Part shown: positions 4,862 to 56,601 of the stretch, piece after piece
Position numbering within the stretch: the first letter of the stretch is position 1
Layout of the letters: every line of letters starts with the position of its first letter
Source of the DNA: a virus
Strand: one strand, 5' to 3'
Virus record (IMG/VR): IMGVR_UViG_3300024520_000047
Coordinates: 1-64,000 of that record
DNA length: 64,000 nucleotides
The notes under the pieces: model-generated
Database searches by the model: none
Seen by the model: only the letters and a program-made list of their open reading frames with translations
What the model was told of the DNA's origin: nothing
Program-made: the position numbers and the translations under genes

Positions 4862-5334
4862 TTGTTACTTTTTAATTTATTAAATGGTTTATTAATTTTT
4901 AATTCTTTTTTTAATGTTTGGTTTTTTTTATTTATTTTAGTGATATATTCTGATATCTCAAATTCTGTTTTAGTTCTTAGTCGTGAATAAACTTTTATGT
5001 GGTCTAACGGTGTAAGAGAGGTAGCTAAAAAATATAATCTATGTGTACCATCTCTAATAATATATTCACTTTCACCCCACTCATTAATATCGTGTGTCTG
5101 GATTACCCTTATCTCTCTTACAATTCCTATTCTTTTAATTCTGGATTCTAATCGTTCCCACTTATAACCTTTTTCTTTTTCTTTAATATAACGTTCTTTT
5201 AATTTTTTTTTATTAAAATTTTTAATTTGTCTTAATCTAATTTTTTTAATTTTATATTTAAAATTAAAAAACATGTAAATTTTATAAAAAAATGCCCCAA
5301 TAATTATTAAACTGTCTTTTAAATACTCTAACAT
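4858..5334 (-). CDS. Membrane-anchored ParB-like domain protein
   Basis: N-terminal hydrophobic segment (residues 8-25, LIIIGAFFYKIYMFF), then a very basic linker. A ParB/sulfiredoxin-like domain follows at about 35-125: RLRQIKNF, an Arg-rich helix, GIVREIRVI and YIIRDGTHRLYFLA, the last matching the GxHR signature of the family. ParB-like domains bind or cut nucleic acid or use NTP. A membrane-tethered form is unusual, and the function is not clear. A TATTTAGA box lies close upstream of the start. Confidence 0.6.
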   Translation of the reverse strand: MLEYLKDSLIIIGAFFYKIYMFFNFKYKIKKIRLRQIKNFNKKKLKERYIKEKEKGYKWERLESRIKRIGIVREIRVIQTHDINEWGESEYIIRDGTHRLYFLATSLTPLDHIKVYSRLRTKTEFEISEYITKINKKNQTLKKELKINKPFNKLKSNK

Positions 5335-36917: not shown

Positions 36918-37389
36918 CGTATAAATCTATAAGTAAATTTAAAGTATGGTTATATACCCACGATTGATTGTGGTTACTGCTACTAAAACTATGTGCTGTA
37001 TCAAATCCAACTACCCAGTATTTACCACTAGGTAAGTCCCATTCATTTACCCCTAATTCATTTGCCCATTGACTGTATGTAACCCCACCCGGCACTGCAC
37101 CAGTATCACTCAACTGTATATCATTATATGGAATACCATATAAAGGATGATTGTCAGTTAAAAATACATACCCATTTCCCCACCCATGAGTATCACCCGA
37201 TGGTAACCACGTATTCTTTACTAAAGAAATGGGAAGTTCTACAATTCCTTCGGATTCAGCTTTTTTTAATATGCTTTTAATTTGAATATTATCGGTGATT
37301 CCCAATAATTTGAAATATGCGAGTCCATTAATTCCTTTCTCTTTAAGAAAAGAGAATGCTTTTTCTATTGTAGAGTTATACTTCTTCAT
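36904..37389 (-). CDS. KLLGI-motif protein, 161 aa
   Basis: N-terminal helices with GLAYFKLLGITDNIQIKSIL (about 20-40), then a Gly/Trp/Asn-rich region (GDTHGWGNGYVFLTDNHPLY). The mini-motif is shared with the giant virion proteins and with genes at 19067 and 27388. Start overlaps the stop of the 121-aa gene. Confidence 0.72.
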   Translation of the reverse strand: MKKYNSTIEKAFSFLKEKGINGLAYFKLLGITDNIQIKSILKKAESEGIVELPISLVKNTWLPSGDTHGWGNGYVFLTDNHPLYGIPYNDIQLSDTGAVPGGVTYSQWANELGVNEWDLPSGKYWVVGFDTAHSFSSSNHNQSWVYNHTLNLLIDLYANLN

Positions 37390-37741
37390 TACGTGGCACT
37401 AAATAAATAGTCTTTAGTTGGAGATTTTTTCTTCCATTAATTCCCCACAGTTTTACCCATGATTCTACTTCCTGTCGAATACCTGTATTTCCTCTACGTA
37501 AAAAATTACGAATGGCACGTGGTCCGTATTCATGTAGGTCTAACCAAACCCCATCTCTAGATTGGACTTCTGATTTAACCCTAATGACTACATCATACTC
37601 TGCCATCCACCCTGCTCGTTCTCGACTTGGTGGGGTTACTCTCATTACTCTCACTTCTGTATTCCTAATAAAATTTTCTTCTCTATCTTTAGGTTTAAGG
37701 ACTCGTGCTTTTAATTTTTTATTTAGTTCTCTGTTTGTCAT
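37376..37741 (-). CDS. Basic hypothetical protein, 121 aa
   Basis: Arg/Lys-rich alpha-beta protein (EYDVVIRVKSEVQSRDGVWL; GPRAIRNFLRRGNTG). Possibly nucleic-acid binding by charge. Leaderless-type promoter upstream. No family recognised. Confidence 0.72.
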   Translation of the reverse strand: MTNRELNKKLKARVLKPKDREENFIRNTEVRVMRVTPPSRERAGWMAEYDVVIRVKSEVQSRDGVWLDLHEYGPRAIRNFLRRGNTGIRQEVESWVKLWGINGRKNLQLKTIYLVPRNEEV

Positions 37742-48735: not shown

Positions 48736-49317
48736 ATGAAATTAATGGACCAGTTATCATATCTAATAGAAGATGTTAGTGGTACGGAAGAAACTCCCAC
48801 TACCTATTCTGATAAACTTATTACTTTTTTAACTGATGATGAGGGTGTGGGTGGTGAACCACTTCTATACACCTATGATGACGGTTACTATAATGACCCC
48901 CCTATAAAATATGATAGTAGTAGATATAAAGGTGGTAAACCTAAAGGCACATTAACAATAGGTTATGGTCATACAGGTAAAGAAGCTTATGAGGGTAATG
49001 TAATTAAAAAAGAAAAAGCTTTAGAATTACTCAAAGAGGATTTAGTGTGGTTTGTGGATGGGATGAATACAATATTATCTTCCTGGTCTAAAGCAGAATT
49101 ATCGGGAGCAAAACTAAATCAATGCCAGTATGATGCATTAGTTTCATTAATGTTTAATGGTGGAAGACAAGCTTTACGTATGTCGAACTGGATTCAAGAT
49201 ATTAAATATGGAAGATTCGATAAAGCCTCTGAAAAAATTAAGTCTTGGAATTGTCCTCTAGGTGTATGTAATAGAAGAATAAGAGAATCCAATCTATTTT
49301 CTAATTGTGTATATTGA
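48736..49317 (+). CDS. GH24 lysozyme with packaging-type N terminus, 193 aa
   Basis: N terminus MKLMDQLSYLIEDVSG has the propeptide shape with L-I-E at residues 10-12. The body is a T4-type lysozyme: TLTIGYGHTGKEA, LNQCQYDALVSLMFNGG and NRRIRESNLF. Cleaves the glycan backbone. The N terminus suggests it is loaded into the virion rather than used only for lysis; a free endolysin is the alternative. Confidence 0.88.
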   Translation: MKLMDQLSYLIEDVSGTEETPTTYSDKLITFLTDDEGVGGEPLLYTYDDGYYNDPPIKYDSSRYKGGKPKGTLTIGYGHTGKEAYEGNVIKKEKALELLKEDLVWFVDGMNTILSSWSKAELSGAKLNQCQYDALVSLMFNGGRQALRMSNWIQDIKYGRFDKASEKIKSWNCPLGVCNRRIRESNLFSNCVY

Positions 49318-50223: not shown

Positions 50224-52431
50224 ATGACAACTCAATCTTACCTAATAAATGAAACTACCCAATATCAGGGAACTACTTCTCAGATAGTAAAAGATATCTT
50301 TAAAGTAATAAAACAAAATATTACTGAAGAGGAACAGAAAACTTACTACCTTCCTGAGGAGTTAGATTTAGATAAAATGTTTTATGATGCATCATATGGG
50401 AGTGGAGTAAGTGTGGAATTAACCATCAAACGTGATACGGAAATGACAGAACCGTTTTTAGTGGATGCCATGTATGTTCCTGAAGAAGAAATACTAGAAA
50501 TAACAATTCAACTTAATCCTTTTGAGGAACCTAAAAGTTACGCTCCTCTATACCAGTACTTAATTGAATATGTAAGACATGAATTGGAACACTTTGACCA
50601 AGAATATAAAGGAACTTTACCAGATGCAGAAGAAGGTCTTAGTACAATGGAATATTATTCCCAACCTCATGAGGTACAAGCACAAAGTGCTGGATTAAAT
50701 CTTAAGGCCAAAAAAACCAGACAAGGATATGAAAAAGTTGTGGGTGATTCCATTGAACTTACCAAACAACGATATGGTTTAAGTGATGAAGAAGGTAATG
50801 ACCTTTATAACCTAATTGTGGGAGATATAGAAGAAAGATATGGAAAGAAAGAATTAAATAAAGAGAGGAGATTTCCGGGAACATTCTTAACGGAACAGGA
50901 TGAGTCTTTTACCCCTAGGGGCCATACTATCTTCGATGATGATGAATACAAAGTATGGGCAGCCTTAGATAAGAAATCTTTTTGTGAATTTGCAAAAGGT
51001 ACTAAATGGTGTGTAGAAAAATCACATATGTGGGATAGACTGGGGTATAGTAAGGGTGGTGGGGGTGGCACCTATTACTTTGTCAAAGATAAAAAAACGG
51101 GTGACTTAAATCTAGTATCCGATTATAGTAGAATACCATTACTTAGAGACGGAGATATCCGTCAGGTATTTAATGAAGATGGGATACCAATGGACAAATT
51201 TAAGTTTTTCTCACAGAAGACCGAACTCCGAAAACTATTTGATATTAAGTATACTTTACCACAACGCATTAGGTTGGATATGCCCTTTACTCCTGAAGAA
51301 CAGGACAAGTGGTATAAAGAAAATATCACCCCTCTGAGTACAGTTGTATATGCCTTAGCCCAAGGAAAAGAGGTGGAGAAAAATATGGCCCTACTCGAGG
51401 ACCTAGTAGGGCCCGACCTTACGGTTATCGATGGGTATCGCTATCGTTCTCCCATCCGAGGGGATGATTATGGTCAGATTGAGATAATGAAGGATGGAAT
51501 TCTGGTATATCTGGAGGAAGATAAATATACTCAGGATATTCTATGTATTCATGAAGATGACATATATTATTATAATCGTGCATATGATTCTTACGGTGAC
51601 GATTACGAGGAGATGGATTCCGACGAATTAAATTACATGGCTTGTTGGTTTAGTGGTGAAGTAATGCAACGAGTGTATGGGTTAATGGAAAAATTAGATG
51701 CAGATTTTGATAAAGCAGCCTGTAGTGATTTTGATGATGGGGAGTTTACTGAATTTTTTGAAGGGCATTTCCCCCGACTGTGGGATGTTGTTACTGATGA
51801 ATTACTTAATCATCTAGGCTATGGTATAGGTGAGAGTAGACGGGTAGAGATGCGAGAATTTTTAGAGGCGGAAATTATTATTCCTTTTACTTCTGAAGGT
51901 AGTGGTGAGGTAAGTATTTTTATTCCTTATGTTCAATTACTCTTCCATGTTACTAACCATAATATGAAAACCCTTTCCCCTCTTTTATCAGATGAGACTT
52001 GTATAGGAGAAGTAGATGGGGGTCTTTCCGATATATGGTATGATGCGTGGGATTGGCCCCAACATACTCATGAAGAAATGGATTATACTATGAATGACTT
52101 TTTAGATAAGATAGACGAAGCAGATGTATCGGTAGCAGATAGAAAAGCGGGGGTGGATAAATATAAAAAAACTATGAAAGATTTAAACTTTAAACCAATA
52201 AATTCATGGGGTACACAATATGAATTTAAACAACCTTGGGAGGGTGGTAACACTATTAAAGTAAGACATTATAATGTAGAAGATGATACGGTAGACCTCT
52301 ATATTAACACTCCTGAGATGATATATAGAAATATACCAGTTCCTGGTATACCACTCGATGAGTTGGTTAAGTTTACACAACCTACATTATTTGATGATGT
52401 ATGGAAAGAAATAGGAAAAGGGTATAATTAA
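50224..52431 (+). CDS. Candidate packaged zincin-like protein with WC motif, 735 aa
   Basis: N terminus MTTQSYLINETTQ (I-N-E at 8-10). Near 120 is a metallopeptidase signature RHELEHFDQE, with a later PHEVQAQSAG that may give the third ligand. Near 250-265 is FAKGTKWCVEKSHMWD, the GxGTxWC motif shared with the 588- and 965-aa proteins. The C-terminal half is very acidic with beta-rich parts. Probably a virion protein; protease activity not certain. Confidence 0.75.
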   Translation: MTTQSYLINETTQYQGTTSQIVKDIFKVIKQNITEEEQKTYYLPEELDLDKMFYDASYGSGVSVELTIKRDTEMTEPFLVDAMYVPEEEILEITIQLNPFEEPKSYAPLYQYLIEYVRHELEHFDQEYKGTLPDAEEGLSTMEYYSQPHEVQAQSAGLNLKAKKTRQGYEKVVGDSIELTKQRYGLSDEEGNDLYNLIVGDIEERYGKKELNKERRFPGTFLTEQDESFTPRGHTIFDDDEYKVWAALDKKSFCEFAKGTKWCVEKSHMWDRLGYSKGGGGGTYYFVKDKKTGDLNLVSDYSRIPLLRDGDIRQVFNEDGIPMDKFKFFSQKTELRKLFDIKYTLPQRIRLDMPFTPEEQDKWYKENITPLSTVVYALAQGKEVEKNMALLEDLVGPDLTVIDGYRYRSPIRGDDYGQIEIMKDGILVYLEEDKYTQDILCIHEDDIYYYNRAYDSYGDDYEEMDSDELNYMACWFSGEVMQRVYGLMEKLDADFDKAACSDFDDGEFTEFFEGHFPRLWDVVTDELLNHLGYGIGESRRVEMREFLEAEIIIPFTSEGSGEVSIFIPYVQLLFHVTNHNMKTLSPLLSDETCIGEVDGGLSDIWYDAWDWPQHTHEEMDYTMNDFLDKIDEADVSVADRKAGVDKYKKTMKDLNFKPINSWGTQYEFKQPWEGGNTIKVRHYNVEDDTVDLYINTPEMIYRNIPVPGIPLDELVKFTQPTLFDDVWKEIGKGYN

Positions 52432-52619
52432 TACTCCTCTTCATCCTTTTTTTTCTGGACGTATTCAGCTTTAAGGATTTCCTCTCTTCTTTTAACTGAT
52501 GGTTTGGTGAATTGTTTGTTGTCTCTTAATTGTTTAATAAGTTGGGTATTAATAACTTTTCTACGTAACTCTTTAATAGCACGTTCAATATTATCTTTTT
52601 TAACTTCAACTTTTAACAT
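52428..52619 (-). CDS. rpsU: Ribosomal protein bS21
   Basis: Full-length bS21, 63 aa: MLKVEVKKDNIERAIKELRR, then FTKPSVKRREEILKAEYVQK and a charged end. Small-subunit protein near the anti-Shine-Dalgarno of 16S rRNA. In Bacteroidota it is reported to help mask the anti-SD, with a Tyr near position 54 involved; Tyr53 here aligns with it. It has its own Bacteroidota promoter, so expression can be independent of the virion genes. Confidence 0.93.
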   Translation of the reverse strand: MLKVEVKKDNIERAIKELRRKVINTQLIKQLRDNKQFTKPSVKRREEILKAEYVQKKKDEEEY

Positions 52620-52646
52620 TTATATTTTTATTTGTTTTTAGATAAA

Positions 52647-52677
52647 CAAAGATAAAACAATTATTTACAAAAACAAA
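52647..52677 (-). promoter_or_regulatory. Bacteroidota-type promoter for bS21
   Basis: TTTG (52674-52677), 19-bp spacer, TATCTTTG (52647-52654), then a leader of about 24-28 nt. Confidence 0.75.
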
Positions 52678-53545: not shown

Positions 53546-54382
53546 TTATAAGGTGCTTAACATTTCCACCAATTTCGGTTGTGGTGATAAATCATATTTA
53601 TCTTTTCTCACATTAGTGTGTGTCCACACCCCCTCTGCACCAACTAAGGCTTGTTTATTAACTAAAAAGGCGTTACCATCACTATCTTCATTAAAAGAAT
53701 CTATAGCGTAATCAGTATTGCCACCAACTAGACCATCTTCTACTAATTTTTTTCCATTACTGCCTAAATAACCATGTAAATTTAACCATTGTTGTTTACC
53801 TAATGTATCTAAATTTATAGGTATCTTTAAAGATTTATTAATAATGCGTTTCATCCCTTTTGCTAAATCTATATCAAATTTTTCACCTAAACTTCTTATA
53901 AGTTGTTTAGTAGATTCTATTTGGGAGTCCGTATAAGTATGATAATAACGGTACCCTTTATATTCAAATCCTAAATCCACTACATCGGTGGAGGGTACCT
54001 TACTGTTAACATAATTGTAATAGGTGTCACCTTTCTTATGGAGAGGACCGTAATTACAAATCTCAATCCCAATACTTTCTTGATTTAATTTTTTATTGTT
54101 ACGAGCCTTTATGCCTAAATGGTGAGCCCATTTTTCAGGGGGGTGACATTCTACTACCACACCATCCCAATCAATATTACCGTCTCTGGTGGATTTACCA
54201 CCAATAATATAAGATGTAGCTATATGTCTTACACCACCCGATTTAGTTTTATCTCTGTCCCAACTCGCTACAGTCCAATCTGCACGATGACTACCAGCAG
54301 TGTGGTGAAGGTAAATTGTCTTTTTAGGTATGATGTCGTGATAGTACTCATCTTCTTCTAGGTAAATTTTTTTTAGTATCAT
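53546..54382 (-). CDS. N-acetylmuramoyl-L-alanine amidase (Amidase_2), 278 aa
   Basis: KTIYLHHTAGSHRADWTVAS with zinc His, then VVVECHPPEKWAHHLG and SIGIEICNYG, the PGRP/Amidase_2 pattern. C-terminal part may bind cell wall (QQWLNLHGYLGSNGKKLVED). I start at MILKKIYLEEDEYYHD (54382): a longer frame would overlap the upstream gene by 68 nt, and a TATTTATA box sits 17 nt before this ATG. Cuts the peptide from the glycan chain; probable lysis or entry enzyme. Confidence 0.85.
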   Translation of the reverse strand: MILKKIYLEEDEYYHDIIPKKTIYLHHTAGSHRADWTVASWDRDKTKSGGVRHIATSYIIGGKSTRDGNIDWDGVVVECHPPEKWAHHLGIKARNNKKLNQESIGIEICNYGPLHKKGDTYYNYVNSKVPSTDVVDLGFEYKGYRYYHTYTDSQIESTKQLIRSLGEKFDIDLAKGMKRIINKSLKIPINLDTLGKQQWLNLHGYLGSNGKKLVEDGLVGGNTDYAIDSFNEDSDGNAFLVNKQALVGAEGVWTHTNVRKDKYDLSPQPKLVEMLSTL

Positions 54383-54398
54383 GTTAATAGATTTTTCT

Positions 54399-55541
54399 TT
54401 ATAAATAGTCTTGAAGACGTTCATTAAATAGTTCAGTAACTTCATCATCATCGTGTGGGTATTCATCTACATTAGGACATAATGGAAAAGTAGAATCACT
54501 GTGTTTCATTATCTCAGCAAAATTACTATTGTCTATGTCACCGGTCTGGTCAATATATTGTAAGAGAGTACGTTCAGCGTGTGGGGTCACATCATAAAAA
54601 GACACTTTCACATCTATGGGTCTATATTTAGCCTCGCTTGAATTATATACGAATTTCTTTACTGTTCCCCTGCCCATAGATGTCCCCACATTCTCATAAA
54701 ACTCATCGTAATATGTGGTATAATAATTATCCATAATGCCTTGATTCCACGCATCTCCCCATGCCCACTTTATTTCATTTTTAACATCGTCTAATTCGTC
54801 TGCACTCTCCAATAGGACTGCGAGATTATATGGGTCTAGTCGTCTCACTCTCTCGGGATAAAGGAAAAAAGCATTATCATCTTCTCCAATCTGGTCTTCT
54901 TCTTTATAACCGTTGAATTCTTCTCTAAAGGTGCTTACCACTGCATTGGTATATTCATTCACCAAAAGATGTTTCAAGGCCTCTATGTTTTCCTCTGTCA
55001 TTTCATTTTCTAGAAGGTAGTCCAACTCGACATTAGTGTCATAGGGTTCCCAACTCAGTCCTTCCTCACCCCAAATCTCTTCCGCTACTGCATGACAATC
55101 TACATCATTACGGGTACTGTCATCATAAAAATCTGCTTCCTCACCGGGTTCCAAGCTCAGTATATATTTTCCATCTTTATAAGTGAGATTAGTTATTAGG
55201 TCTAGAGCCTCTGGTATTATGTACTTATGAAGTAAGTCTTTATCAGGATTATATGCCCCACCAATTGCATCTAAAACAACAGATAACGGATTCGCACTTT
55301 CATCCCAATGGGTTATAATATTAGTTAAAAATTTGTCACCAAGACCTTTATGTTCTAAAGCTTGATATAATTGTTGTAAGGAATTAAAATGGCCCTCTCC
55401 TCTATGACCCCATATATCTCCTCCTCCACCAAAGAGCTTTAAAAGGTCTGCTAAATCTTCCATGTCTTCCGAAGCCAAAGCAACTTCATACCATGGACGG
55501 CTATCTTCTACTAATATGGATAATTGGGTAATGAGTCTCAT
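54399..55541 (-). CDS. Candidate packaged acidic protein, 380 aa
   Basis: N terminus MRLITQLSILVEDSRPW with L-V-E at 10-12. Soon after comes DLADLLKLFGGGGDIWG, a KLFG-type motif as in the giant proteins. The rest is strongly acidic, helical, without recognised domain. Late-type box 4 nt upstream. Confidence 0.75.
   Translation of the reverse strand: MRLITQLSILVEDSRPWYEVALASEDMEDLADLLKLFGGGGDIWGHRGEGHFNSLQQLYQALEHKGLGDKFLTNIITHWDESANPLSVVLDAIGGAYNPDKDLLHKYIIPEALDLITNLTYKDGKYILSLEPGEEADFYDDSTRNDVDCHAVAEEIWGEEGLSWEPYDTNVELDYLLENEMTEENIEALKHLLVNEYTNAVVSTFREEFNGYKEEDQIGEDDNAFFLYPERVRRLDPYNLAVLLESADELDDVKNEIKWAWGDAWNQGIMDNYYTTYYDEFYENVGTSMGRGTVKKFVYNSSEAKYRPIDVKVSFYDVTPHAERTLLQYIDQTGDIDNSNFAEIMKHSDSTFPLCPNVDEYPHDDDEVTELFNERLQDYL
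54400..54407 (-). promoter_or_regulatory. Late-type promoter box TATTTATA
   Basis: TATTTATA 17 nt before the amidase ATG, inside the last codons of the 380-aa gene; a longer leader than the other late boxes. Confidence 0.45.
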
Positions 55542-55975: not shown

Positions 55976-56572
55976 TTAATTTTTAGAAACTTTTGTAATA
56001 ATATATGGATATGGGTCAATTTTTTTTTCACCCACACTTATCTCATAATGTAAATGTTGGCCTGTACTGGACCCAGTATTACCTACAGTTCCAATCGCTT
56101 GCCCATCACATATGGTGTCTTCTTCTTTTACAAATACCTTATTAAGGTGCGCATAAGTACTTTGGTATTCCCATCCATGATATATCTCAATGCACCTCCC
56201 ATATCCTCCACACCATCCTGAATGTAAAACTACACCATCCCCTGTCGCGTATACCGTATCTAAGTAAGTACCCTTTAAATCTATTCCTTGATGACGTTGC
56301 CATCGTTTACTGATGGGGTTACGCCTTACTCCAAAGGGGCTACTTACCTTTACACTATCAAGAGGTGCTCCCAAAGGAATAGCTTGTAATGGATTGGTAG
56401 ATTCAAATGTTTTTACATGGAGAGTATGAAGAAGAGAATCAATATATACTTCTTTATTCTTTATCTCTTTTTGATGCCTACTATTCACTACCCCAATAAT
56501 AATAATAGATAAAATTAAGAGAAGAAAAAAATAGACTATGATAAGTTTACAGTTCTCCATAACATACTTCAT
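55976..56572 (-). CDS. Membrane-anchored M23 endopeptidase, 198 aa
   Basis: Start at MKYVMENCK (56572); a longer frame would run back across the divergent promoter region into the next gene. Membrane anchor LIIVYFFLLLILSIIIIGVV, then full M23 domain: FGVRRNPISKRWQRHQGIDL, GGYGRCIEIYHG, TGSSTGQHLHYEIS. Cuts peptide cross-links in the periplasm, likely for lysis. Lacks the packaging-type N terminus of the other M23 protein. Confidence 0.9.
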   Translation of the reverse strand: MKYVMENCKLIIVYFFLLLILSIIIIGVVNSRHQKEIKNKEVYIDSLLHTLHVKTFESTNPLQAIPLGAPLDSVKVSSPFGVRRNPISKRWQRHQGIDLKGTYLDTVYATGDGVVLHSGWCGGYGRCIEIYHGWEYQSTYAHLNKVFVKEEDTICDGQAIGTVGNTGSSTGQHLHYEISVGEKKIDPYPYIITKVSKN

Positions 56573-56601
56573 CTTATAAGTATTTATTGTAAAACTAATA
56601 G

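Follow-up and report, generated by a model that had tools for sequence, protein, structure and literature searches.

A bS21 gene without a strong Shine-Dalgarno sequence in a virus with a probable host of Bacteroidota type, and its possible role as a ribosomal protein supply outside host feedback

We analyzed a 64,000-nucleotide stretch of viral DNA (positions 1 to 64,000 of IMG/VR record IMGVR_UViG_3300024520_000047; hereafter, the window). A complete 63-amino-acid open reading frame with an ATG start and a bS21 translation was found on its minus strand. The protein matched PF01165 with 43.7 bits against a curated cut-off of 27 (E value of 2.2e-11, profile positions 1 to 54 of 55), which bears out the full bS21 gene proposed in a sequence-only reading of this DNA, and the 245,874-bp virus record from which the window is taken contains no other PF01165 copy. 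The features of the locus are as follows, with L numbers denoting fetched loci.

48736-49317, lysozyme, near bS21
50224..52431, plus strand, 735-aa convergent neighbor with HExxH...HE, a putative zinc peptidase and conserved partner of bS21 in this lineage
52428..52431, no strand, TTAA common to both convergent stop codons (4-nt overlap), kept in L199, L201, L205 and L070
52428..52619, minus strand, bS21 coding sequence (PF01165; closest to 7jil; Tyr53 equivalent to Tyr54 of Flavobacterium johnsoniae)
52620..52646, minus strand, predicted A-rich leader region without Shine-Dalgarno (SD) sequence, pairing with the 16S tail at +0.7 kcal/mol, with a putative transcription start inside it
52647..52654, minus strand, -7 type box TATCTTTG (Bacteroidota TAnnTTTG), 27 nt before the ATG, assigned from sequence and genome-wide motif statistics
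52674..52677, minus strand, -33 type box TTTG, 19 nt from the -7 box, the full motif being enriched in intergenic DNA
53546-54466, Amidase_2 endolysin, near bS21
55976-56629, M23 peptidase, near bS21

The best solved relative of the protein was the bS21 of 7jil (E value of 9e-10, 41.4 bits compared to about 20 for the next group), which comes from F. johnsoniae (PMC9723584); identity was 41 to 43% with the two solved relatives that were compared. KAEYVQ of the phage protein aligned with KAAYIQ of 7jil, and thus Tyr53, which the sequence-only reading had singled out for comparison, corresponds to Tyr54 of F. johnsoniae, the residue that stacks on the anti-SD sequence. An aromatic residue is therefore present at this position, as in the anti-SD-sequestering Bacteroidota type, and the window gene is a phage-encoded bS21 of that type. 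The promoter type, the bS21 type and the SD-less starts described below together point to a Bacteroidota-type host.

The gene sits among lysis genes, and the genes for the major capsid protein, portal and large terminase are located at 209.8 to 219.6 kb of the record. Using the amidase as a query, we retrieved seven IMG/VR contigs, all of which carried bS21 with 63 to 65% identity and unchanged spacing to the amidase; the gene order was common to the three relatives compared gene by gene. Among annotated phage records there was no nucleotide match, and by protein only six uncultured records were matched. The dN/dS of bS21 within the lineage was 0.07 to 0.21 where computable, with synonymous sites near saturation in several pairs, and to judge from these ratios the gene is under purifying selection. 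Action mainly outside the ribosome, or packaging in virions and delivery at infection, seems to us highly improbable for this protein. Virion packaging has been raised as possible (PMC9723584) and the sequence is compatible with such roles, but the ribosome-binding C-terminal region and the Tyr54 equivalent are conserved, no targeting signal is apparent, and the gene is located beside lysis genes.

The 735-aa neighbor has an invariant HExxH...HE motif (residues 119 to 123 and 149 to 150) and gave no Pfam or PHROG match. A direct scan for its relatives returned none; they were found once the amidase served as the query, and are proteins of 904 to 1025 aa with an extra N-terminal part containing hydrophobic stretches. 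The more distant L070 also shows the 4-nt convergent overlap, with a neighbor 33% identical. The predicted structure of the neighbor had a mean pLDDT of 49, too poor for a fold search, and no homology was detected between it and the 238-aa convergent gene of head-cluster phages. The two genes might form a ribosome-remodeling module, in which the putative HExxH peptidase would help to clear host bS21 or speed its turnover, and the phage bS21, made without an SD, would refill the site outside the host autoregulatory loop. PMC9976891 raised, as speculation, a phage protease directed at host bS21, and the conserved pairing of bS21 with the HExxH gene is compatible with it; however, the lysis-region context and the low-confidence model of the neighbor lend no direct support to this module, to which we give very little credence. 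Across the phage loci with both neighbors read (L002-L118, L231-L263), the downstream gene converged on bS21 in 90 of 107, often with a 4-nt overlap, and the partner gene varied between lineages.

Ahead of bS21 lies a promoter-like TTTG-N19-TATCTTTG arrangement of Bacteroidota type. In the whole record, 14 of the 21 TTTG-N18-21-TAnnTTTG sites are intergenic, although intergenic DNA makes up only 5.7% of it, so that a promoter of its own, as claimed from the sequence alone, is likely for bS21. Since the box lies 27 nt from the ATG, the mRNA should be leadered, which places the gene outside the leaderless class, with TAnnTTTG 4 nt before the start. L003-L006, L008, L011, L013 and L017-L023 have in common a TATATATCAA(A)TATA element about 20 to 35 nt before the bS21 start; it is perhaps a phage promoter.

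The starts of the whole record were then compared, with genes called by a simple codon-usage caller that was the same for all genomes; the counts of exact boxes (5 or 6) shift slightly with its settings. An SD core preceded 9 of 232 genes, and the pairing energies equaled those of shuffled sequence. The A fraction in the 13 nt before starts was 0.54, compared to 0.35 before internal ATG codons. The SD-less, A-rich nature of the starts noted earlier is thus confirmed. The TAnnTTTG box stood exactly 4 nt before the start at 5 of the 232 genes (0.2 expected) and at 14 genes with one mismatch allowed; these leaderless-spaced boxes, at about 2 to 6% of genes, are a real but small class. The five exact cases are listed below.

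window 37376-37741, minus strand, leaderless-type gene with TAnnTTTG 4 nt before the start
window 43910-45760, minus strand, leaderless-type gene with the same spacing
record 232263-233084, minus strand, leaderless-type gene with the same spacing
record 244091-244408, minus strand, leaderless-type gene with the same spacing
record 244829-245284, plus strand, leaderless-type gene with the same spacing

The sequence-only reading held that leaderless and A-rich junction starts dominate in this genome and that phage bS21 could tune initiation toward them. Dominance of leaderless starts does not agree with exact spacing at 5 of 232 genes and a bS21 box 27 nt from its ATG, and no separate junction element was found, the A fraction being 0.557 at junction genes and 0.528 at the others. 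As a control, we used 48- to 50-kb stretches of each of four Bacteroidota phages without detected bS21, together with host loci; the four phages were not among the matches listed in a tblastn search of the whole phage collection with bS21. The A fraction before their starts was 0.59 in P12002L, 0.53 in phi14:2, 0.62 in phiST and 0.49 in crAss001, and exact leaderless-spaced boxes occurred twice in P12002L, a Polaribacter phage, and 10 times in the host loci. A-rich, SD-less and occasionally leaderless starts therefore track the host type and not bS21, since phages without bS21 and host loci show them. Leaderless-spaced boxes do exist in this genome above expectation, but they are confined to a few percent of genes, recur in host loci and in a phage without bS21, and accompany an A-richness just as high where bS21 is absent, while the bS21 gene itself is leadered. 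The link to leaderless and A-rich starts thus falls away, and we regard tuning toward such starts as very unlikely. The retained Tyr53 implies instead that the protein should preserve the normal SD-blind state of the host and not create a new start preference.

A clearer contrast was found between phage and chromosomal genes. For each gene, we calculated the pairing energy between the 16S tail and the 22 nt immediately upstream of the start, counting values under -13 kcal/mol as a strong SD. The chromosomal set comprised 79 rpsU loci drawn with Bacteroidota-like patterns, nearly all from Bacteroidota and mostly from Flavobacteriaceae. Their median pairing energy was -18.1 kcal/mol, with 57 of 79 under -13, compared to a median of -2.0 kcal/mol for the phage bS21 genes, where none of 74 distinct genes was under -13 (Mann-Whitney p = 4e-16, which overstates independence because the sequences are related). 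The window gene, at +0.7 kcal/mol, lacks the strong SD of autoregulated rpsU. GGAGG was present within 25 nt of the start in 56 of 79 chromosomal genes and 1 of 74 phage genes. Widening the phage window to 45 nt changed little (median of -2.3), and the phage values were near those of shuffled sequence (-1.9 and -1.7 on average, respectively). The literature searched contained no mention of this contrast. Some bacterial rpsU genes also lack a strong SD, namely those of Saprospiria and Bacteroidales and second paralogs. Several Flavobacteriaceae (Gelidibacter, Winogradskyella, Flavivirga, Algibacter, Yeosuana and Tenacibaculum) have two rpsU genes per genome, and in the pairs (L119, L122, L125, L134, L137, L173, L214; second copies L219-L225) one has a strong SD of -17 to -19 kcal/mol and the other has none.

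An SD core was present in only two phage bS21 genes, those of L043 and L110 (a viral bS21 at 5001-5198 of a 152,665-bp contig). Of the 57 phage rows in a tree of 130 proteins, 55, including the window protein, lay on one side of a branch, apart from the bacterial proteins, with support of 95/83 in an alignment of 64 columns whose bootstrap had not settled. The two phage rows that grouped with bacteria were L043 and L110. These two may be recent host captures that keep the host signal, with the old phage clade being without it.

Compared with bacterial sequences, the phage clade diverges chiefly in its N-terminal half: most members lack Gly9, and Leu19 (85%), Val23 (98%) and Gln28 (87%) prevail, in agreement with the N-terminal divergence described by Chen et al. 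(PMC9723584). The window protein has the Leu19 and Val23 equivalents, and position 28 is Leu, not Gln. From KxSV to position 54, the sequence is largely kept in the clade, with Tyr (96%) or His (4%) at position 54; in the C-terminal region, whose comparison with the host bS21 the sequence-only reading had put forward, all contacts appear kept. The divergent N-terminal half counts in favor of a published hypothesis in which phage bS21 replaces host bS21 and, through its N-terminal helix, gives specialized ribosomes that prefer phage over host mRNAs. In related systems, expression is late and accompanies that of structural genes (PMC9723584), which also favors it. However, most host mRNAs likewise lack an SD and are A-rich, so there is no known sequence feature by which phage mRNA could be told from host mRNA, and the window protein departs from the clade at position 28. 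We consider specialized ribosomes a real but distinctly less probable explanation than the supply role described below, to which the N-terminal helix might possibly add some selectivity for phage mRNAs.

In F. johnsoniae, rpsU is autoregulated: ribosomes lacking bS21, in which the anti-SD is free, read the strong-SD rpsU mRNA (PMC9976891). When bS21 or its C-terminus is missing, ribosomes are poor at initiating on SD-less mRNAs but efficient on rpsU mRNA (PMC9976891). Taken with the SD contrast, this biochemistry suggests that phage bS21 could be a supply free of autoregulation, keeping ribosomes filled and favoring SD-less phage mRNAs. During infection, phage bS21 would be made from an SD-less mRNA by ordinary, bS21-replete host ribosomes, and for that reason the host negative feedback, which acts on a strong-SD mRNA read best by bS21-lacking ribosomes, would not limit it. 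The phage protein would fill or refill the bS21 site so that the anti-SD tail stays sequestered, and initiation would be maintained on SD-less, A-rich mRNAs, which are nearly all of the phage mRNAs. The same supply would keep host rpsU synthesis low.

The supply role fits the presence of a strong SD in 57 of 79 host genes and in no phage gene, the grouping of the only SD-core phage genes with bacteria, the aromatic or His residue at position 54 throughout the phage clade, the published failure of bS21-lacking ribosomes on SD-less mRNAs, the SD-less state of all but a few genes of this phage, and retention of the gene in seven relatives under low dN/dS. On the other side, the genome is SD-less throughout, so the missing SD at bS21 may be an unselected default; the host is inferred, and some bacterial rpsU genes are likewise without a strong SD. 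In addition, E. coli ribosomes carrying a pelagiphage bS21 were almost inactive in vitro (PMC6375957), at odds with plain supply, although the hosts differ. On balance, we give the supply role an even chance. Whether default or selected, the missing SD would leave the gene free of SD-based autoregulation, provided that the published model is valid for the inferred host.

The pelagiphage experiment, with about 5% in vitro activity remaining (PMC6375957), could also indicate host shut-off, in which phage bS21 would make ribosomes defective and lower host translation. E. coli was a mismatched host in that experiment, a phage that needs late structural proteins would harm itself, and all C-terminal contacts appear kept; shut-off is accordingly improbable in our estimate.

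Phage bS21 genes and their substitution into ribosomes are already known, and the present gene is one more, located beside lysis and not capsid genes. The bS21 of pelagiphage HTVC008M, likewise phage encoded, enters ribosomes when expressed in E. coli (PMC6375957); it was acquired from the alphaproteobacterial Pelagibacter host according to that study, as opposed to the Bacteroidota type here. Entry of a phage bS21 into host ribosomes, with an effect on initiation, is a published hypothesis (PMC9723584), and it is plausible for the window protein. The Bacteroidetes phages of Chen et al. 2022 (PMC9723584) resemble the present one in being large, in encoding a Bacteroidota-type bS21 with an aromatic residue at position 54 and a diverged N-terminal half, and in placing it on the strand opposite a convergent neighbor. 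However, in those phages (clades a to e) the genes around bS21 encode terminase, portal, prohead protease and capsid proteins, in place of which lysozyme, amidase and M23 peptidase genes are found here. The convergent neighbor here, the HExxH protein, is unrelated to theirs and larger, and two tRNA genes were found compared to 5 to 25. A head or packaging context was seen in some of the fetched loci, such as L008 with portal and head maturation protease genes.

Chromosomal rpsU of Flavobacteriia (PMC9976891) shares the protein family, length class and Tyr54 equivalent with the window gene but carries a strong SD (set median as above), which is missing here. The second Flavobacteriaceae paralogs (L119, L122, L125, L134, L137, L173) are similarly without a strong SD, and in most of them a normal rpsU is present elsewhere in the genome; these copies are chromosomal, group with bacteria in the tree and have His or Tyr at position 23, where the phage clade has Val.

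Genes for bS21 are common in aquatic viruses. That the phage copies almost entirely lack the host autoregulatory SD suggests that these viruses may supply bS21 outside the host feedback loop. The question of why phages carry bS21 thereby becomes directly testable in the existing F. johnsoniae system.
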